From: a virus
Virus record (IMG/VR): IMGVR_UViG_3300028394_000143
Location: 1-40,465 of that record
Reading direction: 5' to 3' (one strand)
Length of the DNA: 40,465 nucleotides
The notes beneath the pieces were generated by a model. That model made no database searches. It saw nothing but the letters and a program-made list of their open reading frames with translations, and was not told the DNA's origin. How positions within the stretch are numbered: position 1 is the stretch's first letter; the number at the start of each line of letters is the position of its first letter. Shown here one piece after another: positions 143-38,306 of this stretch. The position numbers and the translations under genes were made by a program.

Positions 143-337
143 AGCGCGGTAGATTGGGCAGCATTATTGGTATCTTTATCTGCAATTGTTGCAGCATTTG
201 CAACAGCAGTTCGATGGATGGTTAAGCATTATTTATTTGAATTAAAAACAAACGGGGGCAGTTCAGTCAAAGACCAAGTCAATAGATTAGAGGCCCGAGT
301 TGACCAGATTTATCTCTTATTATGTGAGAAAGAATAG
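140..337 (+). CDS. Small single-TM protein, holin or lysis-accessory candidate
   Basis: A 65-residue protein with a hydrophobic N-terminal segment (about residues 6-24), then a conserved RWMVKHYL stretch, the turn NGGSS and a charged amphipathic helix. This gives one membrane helix with a cytoplasmic or wall-facing coiled tail. It starts at the ATG that overlaps the stop of the tail gene by one base (TAATG). It opens a cassette that contains an endolysin, so a holin or lysis-accessory role is plausible but inferred from position. A divergent homologue, about half identical by hand alignment, occurs at 40261-40455. Confidence 0.75.
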
Positions 338-1952
338 AGCACTTGCTGCTTTCTTTATAGTTGTAGGCACTTCTTTTTATGCACCACCTGCTTATGCAAC
401 CCCACCAGAGTTAATGGTAAGAGATGTAACAATTATCTGCGCTAATCCTGCGGGAGAAACACACACTGCACTTACTGGTTGGGATGCTGACAATACTTAC
501 TTTGATGGCAAAGGTGACATAGCAAGATTATTTTGCGAGGGTGGCTTTGGTGGTGAATGGACCACTTACATAAGTGATAATTACTCAGGACCTGGACGAT
601 TCTACAATAGTGGTGTTGCTCCAACACCTATTCCTGAACCTACTCCAACGCCTTCTCCAACTCCAACTGTAGCGCCAACGCCCGAGCCTTCTCCTTCTCC
701 CACTCCCGTTGTAACCCCTCAACCTTCGATTTCTCCAACCGCAACTCCAACGCCATCTCCGTCTCCTTCAGAGACTGCGACTGCTTCAGTCGAACCAACT
801 CCTTCTCCGAGTCAAACACCCGTAGTTGAGCCAAGTCCAACTCCGACTGTAGTGCCAACACCTTTGCCTTCTCCAGTGCCAACTCAGACTCCAGAACCTT
901 TACCTTCTCCAACCAGTACTCCTGTGTTACCTGAACCATTGCCTACTCCATCCCCTGTAGATACCAATACGCCAGTGCCAGTACTCCCAACGCCACAGCC
1001 AACCCCAATACCATTACCTATTCCTGTTCCTCAGCCAGTGCCACAGCCTGAGCCAACGCCCGTTCCTGTGCCTGTCCCTGTTGTCGAACCAGTTCTACCT
1101 GTCCCTGTGGTCCAACCACCTGTTGTAAGCCCACAGCCAGAGCCAGGTCCAGAACCTCAGCCTCAACCTGAGCCAGTACCACAACCTGTACCCGTAGCAG
1201 AGCCTCCAGCACCTGAACCTTTGCCTGAGCCTGTTCCAGTAGCAGAAGAACCTCCTGCCCCTGTAGAAGAACCTCCTGTTGCAATTCCTGACCCTGAGGG
1301 TTCGATTGGTGAGCCTCCTGCTCCAGTAGAGGAACCACCTGCTCCTGAACCTCCATTAGACCCGTCCCCTGAGCCTGTACCAACTGCGCCAGAACCTAAT
1401 CCTCAACCAGCGGAACCTCAACCGACTATCCCAATTGTCCCAGAAGAACCTCATACTGAGCCTCCTATTGCTCCTCCTAATGCAACTGCACAGGAGAGAC
1501 AGATAGTAGCAGAGGCAGTTATAGAAGCAGCGCAAGGCGCACCAGTAACTGCACAAGCAATTCAAGATGCTGGTATTACTCTTCAAGACTTGCCACCTGA
1601 TACACCTATTGAGGTTCGTACAGATGAGGCAGGCAATGAAGTAGTTATTACCGCAGAGGTAGCAATTGCTTTGGTTCTCCTTGAGAATCCAGCAGAACTA
1701 ATTGCAGAACTCTTTAGTGACCCAGCCAATGCCTTGCTTGCTATTGCAAGCATTGGTGCTGATATGTCAGTAGAAGAACGTACAGAATCAGAAAAAATTA
1801 TTGTTGCCTCCGTTATTGTTGGACAGATTGCTACTACTGCAGCAACTATGGCAGCATCTACAACTACAACTAGAACCCCCTCTAGTGGTGGTTCTTCTGG
1901 TGGCGGTGCTGCCAGTAGAGAATCTAAAACCGTAAGGAGACGCAAGCCGTGA
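324..1952 (+). CDS. Secreted proline-rich repeat protein in the lysis cassette
   Basis: The GTG at 324 gives 542 residues and places a clean Sec signal peptide at the start: KNR, a hydrophobic core, then a likely cut after AYA (about residue 25). A short folded region with two cysteines follows (about 26-97). Next come nearly 290 residues dominated by Pro with Thr, Ser, Val and Glu (PTPTP, PEPVP and similar). The C-terminal domain (about 390-542) carries two hydrophobic stretches and a Ser/Gly linker ending in RRRKP. The upstream TTG at 300 would bury the signal peptide, so GTG is preferred, overlapping the previous gene by 14 bases. The layout resembles an exported protein with a wall-spanning rod. 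I recognise no enzyme domain; a spanin-like or wall-crossing lysis role is inference. Confidence 0.75.
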
Positions 1953-3093: not shown

Positions 3094-3354
3094 CTATTTG
3101 TATGTTAGATACATTGGTATTGGTTCGATATTAAGTTGTCGCCGCATTTTATGGCGTTGATTTTCTGTTGTATTACCCCAGTAACCCATAACATTATACT
3201 TAAGTGCATAGTCAAGGCATTCTTTTTGAACTATACATGACCCACAAATCTTTTTAAGTGCTTTGACTTCTGGGTATGTGTTTTGTCCGTCAGGTACAAA
3301 AAACAAATCAGTATCTGTTGACTCGCAATTAGGTGTGTTACTAGGTTTGTACAT
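3094..3354 (-). CDS. whiB: WhiB-family transcriptional regulator
   Basis: 86 residues with the four-cysteine cluster of WhiB-like proteins: Cys10, Cys37 and Cys40 (CGSC) and Cys46, followed by the turn GYWGNTTENQR, the counterpart of the family's G-(V/I/Y)-WGG motif, and a basic DNA-contacting tail (HKMRR). WhiB proteins carry a 4Fe-4S cluster and bind the host principal sigma factor; they occur only in actinobacteria and their phages. GGGGGA precedes the ATG. It lies in the same operon as a sigma-like protein, suggesting joint control of host RNA polymerase. Confidence 0.93.
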   Translation of the reverse strand: MYKPSNTPNCESTDTDLFFVPDGQNTYPEVKALKKICGSCIVQKECLDYALKYNVMGYWGNTTENQRHKMRRQLNIEPIPMYLTYK

Positions 3355-36498: not shown

Positions 36499-36908
36499 TG
36501 GCACATTACGCATTCTTAGATAAAAATAATATAGTTACAGAAGTAATTACTGGTATTGACGAATCACAAACCATTGAAGGTTTAGATACAGAAACTTGGT
36601 ATGGAAACTTCCGTGGTCAAGTCTGCAAGCGTACCTCTTATAATGGTAACATTCGTAAGAACTACGCTAGTATCGGATTCACCTACGATGAAGTCCGTGA
36701 TGCCTTTCTTCCTCCAACTCCATTTGCTTCTTGGGTTATAGACGAGCATACTTTTCAATGGGTTCCCCCTATATCAGAGCCAACGGAAGAAGGCGATTAT
36801 GTTTGGAGTGAGTTACAGATTAACTGGATATTGCGTCCAGAAAAACCTGATGTTTCAACCGCGTGGAATTGGGATTACAAAACAGACCAATGGATAGAAT
36901 TTACATAG
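36498..36908 (+). CDS. Conserved aquatic-phage tail-region protein
   Basis: 136 residues from the ATG at 36498, overlapping the previous stop by one base. WYGNFRGQVCKRTSYNGNIRKNYASIGFTYDEVRDAFLPPTPF (residues about 34-77, given here by its ends) and repeated WxxW-type segments resemble a protein family widespread in marine cyanophages and other aquatic phages. Role unknown, often near tail fibres. It overlaps the sulfotransferase-like gene by 19 bases. Confidence 0.72.
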   Translation: MAHYAFLDKNNIVTEVITGIDESQTIEGLDTETWYGNFRGQVCKRTSYNGNIRKNYASIGFTYDEVRDAFLPPTPFASWVIDEHTFQWVPPISEPTEEGDYVWSELQINWILRPEKPDVSTAWNWDYKTDQWIEFT

Positions 36909-37351
36909 ATGGGTTTCCTCGTTCGGGTAATGTATTTACTCAACAAGTTTTAGAAAATGCTTTCCCACAGGCGTTTGTAACTCCCTTTACTCATAGTGTT
37001 CCAGTTTTGACCAAAGAACACTTTGTTCTTATTAGAAATCCCAATGTTTCTATTTCTAGTTTTATGAATTTTTTTCAAGAATTTGATAAAGATGCTTGCG
37101 AAAGATGGTGGTTGCGTTTTCACAATGCAGTTTTAGATAAAACAAGTCCTGAGCGTTGGATTTTTTTTGAAGATTTAACAAACAAAACTGAACAAACGGT
37201 AGAGTGTATTGGCAATATTGTAGGAATAGAACCTATAAAAATTAACTACTCAAGTTTAAGTAAAAATTCTACACGTGAATCTTATCCATTATATTCATTT
37301 AATAAAGCACAAGAATTATATACAAAATTAAAACAAAAGGGACAAAAATGA
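36890..37351 (+). CDS. Sulfotransferase-like protein
   Basis: 153 residues from the ATG at 36890. GFPRSGN (8-14) is the 5'-phosphosulfate-binding loop of PAPS-dependent sulfotransferases, and LIRNPNVSISSF (about 47-58) matches the 3'-phosphate-binding motif with its serine. The protein is short for the family (usual length 250 or more), so it may be a minimal form. Its stop overlaps the APS-kinase-like gene (ATGA), which could make the sulfate donor. The substrate is unknown; sugars or tail proteins are possible. Confidence 0.78.
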   Translation: MDRIYIDGFPRSGNVFTQQVLENAFPQAFVTPFTHSVPVLTKEHFVLIRNPNVSISSFMNFFQEFDKDACERWWLRFHNAVLDKTSPERWIFFEDLTNKTEQTVECIGNIVGIEPIKINYSSLSKNSTRESYPLYSFNKAQELYTKLKQKGQK

Positions 37352-38094
37352 TTATACAAATTATAGGTTTGCCTGGTAGTGGTAAGACAACACTTGCTAC
37401 CGCTCTGGCTGACCGTATTAATGCTGTGCATATAAATGCTGATTATGTACGGGCAACTATTAATTCTGATTTAGGTTTTACGCCTGAGGACAGAGTTGAA
37501 CATTCCCGCCGTTTGGGTGAAATGGCTAAGATGTTATCTAGTCAAGGCTTAAATGTTGTTATTGATTTTATTTGCCCTACTCTTGCTACTCGCATAGCCT
37601 TTGGCAAACCTGACATTTGTATTTGGATGGACACTCTTACCAAAAGTCGTTTTGAAGATACAAATAAATTGTGGGAAATACCTATTGAGTTTGATTATCA
37701 TTTTATATCTTATGACAGCAAAGGTCAAACAGATTTAATTATTGCTCAATCTGGTTTACACGACTGGAAGGCACCTACAACCCTATTGCTTGGCCGCTAT
37801 CAGCCTTGGCACGAAGGGCATCAAGCACTATGGGAGGCAGCGGGTGAACGAACATCACAAGTTATGGTCGCTATCAGAGATACGCACGGCACTAGTGAAA
37901 AAGACCCGTTGGTTTTTTCAGAAGTGGCTAGACGAATTAGACAGGAACTACCAGCAGCCTTTATAGTAAAAATGCCTAACATTACTAACATAGTTTATGG
38001 TCGTGATGTTGGCTATAAAATTGAACAAGTAGAACTTTCACAAGAACTTCAATCTATTTCCGCTACACAAAAAAGAAAAAAGTTGGGGCTGTGA
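37348..38094 (+). CDS. APS kinase-like domain fused to a nucleotidyltransferase domain
   Basis: 248 residues in two domains. Residues 1-130 resemble adenylylsulfate kinase: P-loop GLPGSGKTT (7-15), INADYVR (29-35), NSDLGFTPEDR (39-49), DFICPT (73-78) and WMDT. Residues 143-248 form a nucleotidyltransferase of the HxGH class: LLGRYQPWHEGH (147-158) and the ISATQKR motif (237-243). The second domain could be NMN adenylyltransferase-like, cytidylyltransferase-like or a compact ATP-sulfurylase-like enzyme. Beside a sulfotransferase, production of PAPS is the attractive reading, but it is inferred. The start overlaps the previous stop by four bases. Confidence 0.8.
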   Translation: MIIQIIGLPGSGKTTLATALADRINAVHINADYVRATINSDLGFTPEDRVEHSRRLGEMAKMLSSQGLNVVIDFICPTLATRIAFGKPDICIWMDTLTKSRFEDTNKLWEIPIEFDYHFISYDSKGQTDLIIAQSGLHDWKAPTTLLLGRYQPWHEGHQALWEAAGERTSQVMVAIRDTHGTSEKDPLVFSEVARRIRQELPAAFIVKMPNITNIVYGRDVGYKIEQVELSQELQSISATQKRKKLGL

Positions 38095-38306
38095 AAGTAA
38101 CTAAGGCACGTTCATTTACTAAATCACTTAGTTATAGAATTTTTGGAACATTAAGTTCTTTTGCTGTTGCCTATGCCATTACTGGTAATGGCAGTTTATC
38201 TGCACTTATTGCGTTCTGGGAGACATTAGTTAAAGTTGGTATTTATTATTGGCACGAAAGAATCTGGGATAAAATATCCTGGGGTAGAAAAACTAAGGAG
38301 CAATAG
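38091..38306 (+). CDS. DUF2061 membrane protein
   Basis: 71 residues from GTG 38091 (GTGA overlap). The DUF2061 pattern is visible: KSLSYRIFGTLSSF, then AYAITGNGSLSALIAFWETLVKVGIYYWHERIW, with two membrane helices (about 15-31 and 36-52). Its function is not known. It lies directly after the APS-kinase fusion, so it may serve that module, for example as a membrane partner or transporter; this is inferred. Confidence 0.8.
   Translation: MKVTKARSFTKSLSYRIFGTLSSFAVAYAITGNGSLSALIAFWETLVKVGIYYWHERIWDKISWGRKTKEQ

Follow-up and report, generated by a model that had tools for sequence, protein, structure and literature searches.

Among the known systems closest to the phage protein described here are the animal PAPSS1/2 proteins, in which an APS kinase is followed by an APS-forming nucleotidyltransferase; the phage fusion shares both this order of kinase and nucleotidyltransferase and the HxxH nucleotide motif. 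The PAPSS1 chains 1x6v and 1xnj align loosely over the whole fusion model (rmsd 14-15), but the second part of the phage protein, at approximately 110 aa, is much smaller than its PAPSS counterpart, the sulfurylase, and the phage fusion has no RNP loop, no extra N-terminal domain, and a shortened kinase lid. An APS-forming part is also joined to an APS kinase in the CysN-CysC and Sat-APS kinase fusions, as we propose for the phage protein, although the phage nucleotidyltransferase (NTase) bears no relation to the CysN GTPase and the window copy has no match to the Pfam ATP-sulfurylase family (PF01747). With NadM-type NMN adenylyltransferase and PPAT the NTase has in common the HxGH fold and a GRxQPxHxGH motif; it differs from them in its shorter chain, its YGRDVGYK motif, its sulfur context, and its APS-kinase-type partner.

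Sulfotransferases of marine phages have been reported, and their function called unclear (PMC10580990). Those phages also carry a Sulfotransfer_3-type gene, but in the cassette that we describe the sulfotransferase is linked to a putative donor-making enzyme and to a DUF2061 gene. Our literature searches returned no description of a phage sulfotransferase paired with an APS kinase. The Campylobacter-type phosphoramidate pathway combines an APS-kinase-like kinase with a cytidylyltransferase, and no sign of it appeared in the neighbourhoods that we read.

A three-gene cassette beside fibre genes

The window, that is, the whole stretch of DNA analysed, comprises 40,465 bases and is a virus record in IMG/VR. 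The phage carrying the cassette is a freshwater phage, and a gene for a WhiB-family transcription factor (3094-3354, minus strand; 51.5 bits) suggests an actinobacterial host. A 550-aa ORF at 300-1952 (plus strand) consists mostly of Pro-rich PxPxP repeats and has a signal-like N-terminal segment. The features of the cassette and its immediate upstream neighbour are as follows:

36501..36908, plus strand: 135-aa protein of phrog_7759, function unassigned (PHROGs E 3.5e-34)
36890-37351, plus strand: minimal sulfotransferase, 153 aa from ATG (ORF call)
36911..36931, plus strand: 5'-PSB loop GFPRSGN, residues 8-14 (R11 invariant in alignment)
36992..36994, plus strand: His35, candidate catalytic base (invariant in alignment)
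37034..37060, plus strand: 3'-phosphate motif RNPNVSISS (RNP..S, residues 49-57; R49, P51, and S57 invariant)
37348-38094, plus strand: kinase-NTase fusion, 248 aa (ORF call)
37348..37755, plus strand: APS-kinase-like domain of the fusion (PF01583, AF2 model, alignments)
37762..38091, plus strand: 110-residue HxGH NTase domain, residues 139-248, proposed to form APS (AF2 model, genomic context)
37792..37821, plus strand: nucleotide-binding motif GRYQPWHEGH (G, R, Q, P, H, G, and H invariant in 36 sequences)
37996..38019, plus strand: motif YGRDVGYK (in the 36-sequence alignment Y, G, R, V, G, and Y invariant, D and K in >90%)
38091-38306, plus strand: DUF2061 small membrane protein, 71 aa (ORF call, DUF2061 profile)

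The three genes lie where the first-pass annotation had placed them, and the four-base overlaps that it described are found at two junctions: ATGA at 37348 between the sulfotransferase and the fusion, and GTGA at 38091 between the fusion and the DUF2061 gene. Upstream, the 5' end of the sulfotransferase gene shares 19 bases with the preceding gene, and downstream the DUF2061 gene and the next gene share a single base (38306). The reported position beside fibre genes and a large tail protein also agrees with the neighbours that we identified, namely a 766-aa fibre-like protein, a Gly-rich protein, and a 651-aa protein of phrog_11667, a family to which PHROGs assigns no function. Because a second IMG/VR contig (L082) repeats the gene order of the window with a 100% identical sulfotransferase, an assembly artefact is unlikely.

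Proposed route from sulfate to a sulfated target

We think it fairly likely that the cassette both makes and uses activated sulfate, along a route running from sulfate through APS and PAPS to a sulfated target. The C-terminal NTase domain of the fusion would join ATP and sulfate into APS, as its genomic context suggests; the N-terminal kinase domain would phosphorylate APS to give PAPS; and the minimal sulfotransferase would use PAPS as donor to place a sulfuryl group on an acceptor. Both the proximity of the cassette to fibre genes and the fusion of the sulfotransferase to phrog_7759 in relatives point to a virion or fibre component, or a host-surface glycan, as the putative acceptor, and the DUF2061 protein would act as a membrane accessory of sulfate activation. 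That the genes could make PAPS and sulfate a target had been suggested before, and the operon-like run of a probable PAPS-making enzyme, a predicted sulfotransferase, and a DUF2061 protein is consistent with that suggestion, from which the NTase was missing.

The main interest of the cassette is this small NTase, a previously unrecognised domain. If it makes APS, then aquatic phages carry a self-contained route for sulfate activation and sulfation, some phage cysC genes have been assigned to the wrong pathway, and there is a concrete candidate gene for the SAR11 puzzle of an APS reductase without sat.

The fusion protein contains two enzyme domains

The APS_kinase profile (PF01583) matches residues 2-82 of the fusion with 57.7 bits (cut-off 21.1), and APS kinases match the AF2 model of the fusion (pLDDT 84.5) at Z 14-15. 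The structure prediction that had been put forward as a check thus returns an APS-kinase fold, and the missing APS pocket that was to count against the idea did not occur for the kinase. The earlier label of an APS-kinase-like fusion is accurate for this half of the protein and overlooks the other, since a second enzyme domain makes up the C-terminal half. In the kinase half, the P-loop and the (D/A)D..R, F, R, R, F.xP substrate motifs are present; D32, R35, F44, R49, R55, F74, P77, and R82 are common to it and canonical APS kinases, and identity to the canonical APS kinase of a cellular contig from the OCS116 cluster (L098) is 43% over 86 columns. We call the kinase APS-kinase-like because the canonical lid, KGLYKKAR...FTGIDSPYE, is replaced by R-F-x-D-T-N-K, which is invariant in the aligned phage fusions, and because the apsK equivalog model gives 60 bits, short of its cut-off of 138.7. 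The family and fold predict conversion of APS to PAPS, and the loss of the canonical lid argues against a PAPS-making fusion.

The NTase was modelled alone, since the structure search with the whole fusion filled with kinase matches. The resulting AF2 model (pLDDT 89.4) reaches Z 9-10 to PPAT, NMNAT, and GCT; Foldseek with the NTase gave no match below E 0.001, and no ATP sulfurylase is among the 50 structural matches listed, a result still compatible with kinship. The CTP_transf_like profile is found at E up to 1 in all 17 NTase members considered (best 1.9e-7), and the ATP sulfurylase profile PF01747 matches three of the 17 (best E 0.0015) and leaves the window copy unmatched. The nearest solved sequences are NadM-type NMN adenylyltransferases, the best at 46 bits over the N-terminal half of the domain only. 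By motif and predicted fold, the NTase is a member of the HxGH nucleotidyltransferase superfamily.

In ATP sulfurylase, the QxRN loop binds sulfate. The corresponding QxRNPxHxxH RNP loop is absent from the NTase, which has GR(Y/W/F)QP(W/F)HxGH instead, and the YGRDVGYK motif resembles, and may be equivalent to, the GRD loop of ATP sulfurylase described in PMC3779200. Chains of NMNAT or PPAT exceed the NTase by approximately 50 residues, so that the acceptor site of those enzymes would have little room in it. Neither fold nor sequence decides what the acceptor is, and genome context is more informative; judged by that context, the NTase may have an ATP-sulfurylase-like function, yet its lack of the RNP loop places it outside the ATP sulfurylase family.

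Recurrence among phages and the association with DUF2061

The first-pass annotation had called the pairing of a donor-making enzyme with a transferase unusual, which does not hold: the fusion occurs in >590 matching IMG/VR loci, a sulfotransferase-like gene stands within three genes of it in 54 of 152 phage loci, and a DUF2061 gene follows it within 1 kb in 131 of the 149 phage loci with room for one. Once fusions over 95% identical were removed, 40 of the 52 loci with a sulfotransferase-like gene in the flank had it at most three genes away, against 19 in shuffles of gene positions. Sulfotransferases above Pfam cut-offs adjoin or lie near the fusion, or a separate kinase-NTase pair, at L091, L096, and L102. 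A sulfotransferase-like ORF is present in the fetched flank of 73 of the 152 loci; about half show none, which argues against the sulfation reading.

Aquatic phages also show, near the fusion, recurrent genes for tryptophan halogenases (L062:6999-8537 and about 22 other loci) and Asp/Asn beta-hydroxylases (L014:1215-1784 and about 21 others), which suggests a wider set of modification enzymes.

The identification of the 71-aa product as a DUF2061 membrane protein stands, with a 62.8-bit match to PF09834 (cut-off 23.1). In the literature that we found, DUF2061 is listed only as an iron-regulated membrane protein without known function. A connection to sulfate activation comes from the genome G005, in which a single protein comprises GTP_EFTU, GTP-eEF1A_C, and DUF2061, the last at the C-terminus of CysN, and is encoded beside CysD. 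Eight genomes from a single Xanthobacteraceae-type family, G005 and seven others, have such CysN-DUF2061 fusions (L217:2416-4053 on the minus strand, and L234-L240), beside CysD where seen; among further DUF2061 loci from the same order as G005 (L218-L223), inspection by eye revealed no clear neighbours for sulfate activation. As DUF2061 both follows the phage fusion and is fused to CysN, two unrelated contexts connect it with sulfate activation, and it is probably a membrane accessory of that process.

The nucleotidyltransferase in OCS116 and SAR11 genomes

In L098, the NTase shares a reading frame with an intact APS kinase of the canonical type (apsK 243 bits, cut-off 138.7); relative to CysN-CysC, it takes the place of CysN, and the linker looks similar. 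A contig from a gammaproteobacterial MAG (L099) has the same NTase-kinase start and ends inside the kinase, and the NTase also occurs in a 310-aa frame in a second genome of the OCS116 order. PF01507 (CysD/CysH) is absent from both NTase-carrying OCS116 genomes, and PF01747 is absent from the OCS116 genome G015, making the fused NTase the visible candidate source of APS in OCS116. The genome of L099 does contain PF01507 genes.

For the SAR11 bacteria of the ocean, we considered 197 genomes belonging to the same family as the Pelagibacteraceae genome G017, a sample that includes incomplete MAGs and SAGs. The NTase is present in 117, aprA in 98, and both in 88 (Fisher p 5e-19, uncorrected for phylogeny), and aprA accompanies the NTase in 85 of the 93 genomes with a free-standing copy versus 3 of the 23 whose NTase frame is of fused length. 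The distance from the NTase to aprA is 1.4-4.0 kb in 40 genomes, where both genes always share a strand, and SAR11 loci that read on the plus strand almost all have an APS-kinase-like P-loop gene ahead of the NTase. Classical genes are scarce (PF01747 in 9 of the 197, CysD over cut-off in 7). P. ubique has been described as being without sat and most cys genes, with cysC and aprA tabulated in the same strains, and the same paper relays the proposal that AprBA detoxifies sulfite (PMC5069961). The SAR11 arrangement is similar to that of Allochromatium vinosum, where sat is cotranscribed with aprMBA (PMC3779200): in both, an APS-handling nucleotidyltransferase gene (putative in SAR11) adjoins the APS reductase genes, but SAR11 has the kinase and mini-NTase where A. 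vinosum has sat. With sat nearly absent and the NTase linked to aprA, the step from APS to sulfate is a gap that the NTase gene could fill, and the SAR11 kinase and mini-NTase could be a candidate for the missing sat step. A point against this argument is that simple sulfite oxidation has no need of a kinase in the AprBA cluster.

The kinase and mini-NTase genes adjoin aprBA at L100:7992-12806 and in 40 SAR11 genomes, and between the two pairs lie a CADD/TENA-like gene and a membrane protein that is AprM-like by position. Some SAR11 single-cell genomes (L093:7947-8768 and L095:373-1194) carry a fused kinase-NTase with an altered motif, YGRKVGYK, just before a region whose ORFs look spurious, as is typical of an rRNA operon.

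Candidate roles of the nucleotidyltransferase

On balance, we lean by a narrow measure toward the NTase being a new, very small class of APS-forming or APS-consuming adenylyltransferase, working in aquatic phages with an APS kinase to feed sulfotransferases and in SAR11 as a partner of AprBA in sulfite oxidation. The handling of APS is supported by the fusion to a canonical APS kinase in an OCS116 genome, CysD/CysH-type genes being absent from the OCS116 genomes that carry the domain, by the co-occurrence with aprA in SAR11, where sat and cysD are nearly absent, by the proximity of relatives to sulfotransferases, and by the presence of DUF2061 both after the fusion and on CysN. The phage protein is then probably a compact PAPS synthase in kinase-then-sulfurylase order, with a small sulfurylase part of a different subfamily.

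The resemblance to NMN adenylyltransferases in sequence and to PPAT/NMNAT in fold, together with the missing QxRN loop, counts against APS formation. The same features, along with the structural similarity to GCT, favour a different division of labour, in which the kinase would turn host APS into PAPS, the NTase would make another activated nucleotide (of the NMN, phosphosugar, or phosphoalcohol type) for a different modification, and the sulfotransferase would use PAPS independently. We regard this as unlikely, given the in-frame joining of the NTase to an apsK-type kinase (complete in L098, truncated in L099), its linkage to aprBA in SAR11, its pairing with DUF2061 and sulfotransferases, and a chain too short to leave much space for the acceptor sites of NMNAT/PPAT.

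Sulfate assimilation would be a further purpose for APS-forming and PAPS-forming enzymes, with the cassette serving as an auxiliary metabolic gene set for cysteine supply. Phage cysC from freshwater viromes has been interpreted in this way; it is annotated as assimilatory in PMC10914622 and placed in sulfur-pathway energy metabolism in PMC8066274. None of the 41 phage records with the fusion contains a PF01507 gene (PAPS reductase/CysD-type; CysH), which disfavours an assimilatory role even though the host could supply one, and sulfotransferase-like genes stand close by; we therefore consider this reading improbable.

The sulfotransferase as the predicted user of PAPS

The route through PAPS to a sulfated target, which we prefer, calls for an active transferase. 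The first-pass annotation had described a minimal sulfotransferase with both PAPS-binding motifs, and GFPRSGN and RNP..S are indeed there, with R11, H35, R49, P51, and S57 invariant in an alignment of 13 phage relatives; on these motifs, we predict a PAPS-dependent enzyme. Sulfotransfer_3 scores 19.1 bits (E 0.0017), below its cut-off of 27, and a profile of the 13-member family retrieves solved PDB sulfotransferases at E 2e-5, while Sulfotransfer_1 recognises all members but one at E up to 1 (12 of 13; best 7.8e-8). A degenerate or structural protein, with only PAPS or APS production mattering, is the least probable reading: the 153-aa length, the sub-threshold Pfam score, and relatives in which DAASRCAN or DAPPRCAN replaces GFPRSGN speak for it, and the five residues kept across 13 divergent members and the intact motifs of the window copy speak against it. 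The altered relatives retain the R of the PSB loop, and sulfotransferase activity may not be universal in the family.

Close relatives of the window sulfotransferase number two in IMG/VR and none among INPHARED phages, and remote relatives occupy the same place in other phages. Over whole phage records, Sulfotransfer_1 matches 9 of 41, the window not among them, and thus undercounts this divergent family; a sulfotransferase-like neighbour family, S2a, has the motifs and a representative with no Pfam sulfotransferase match. In several relatives (L007, L008, L023, L027, L030, and L036), the Trp-rich phrog_7759 domain is N-terminal to the sulfotransferase in one ORF, whereas in the window the two are separate genes beside the fibre genes.
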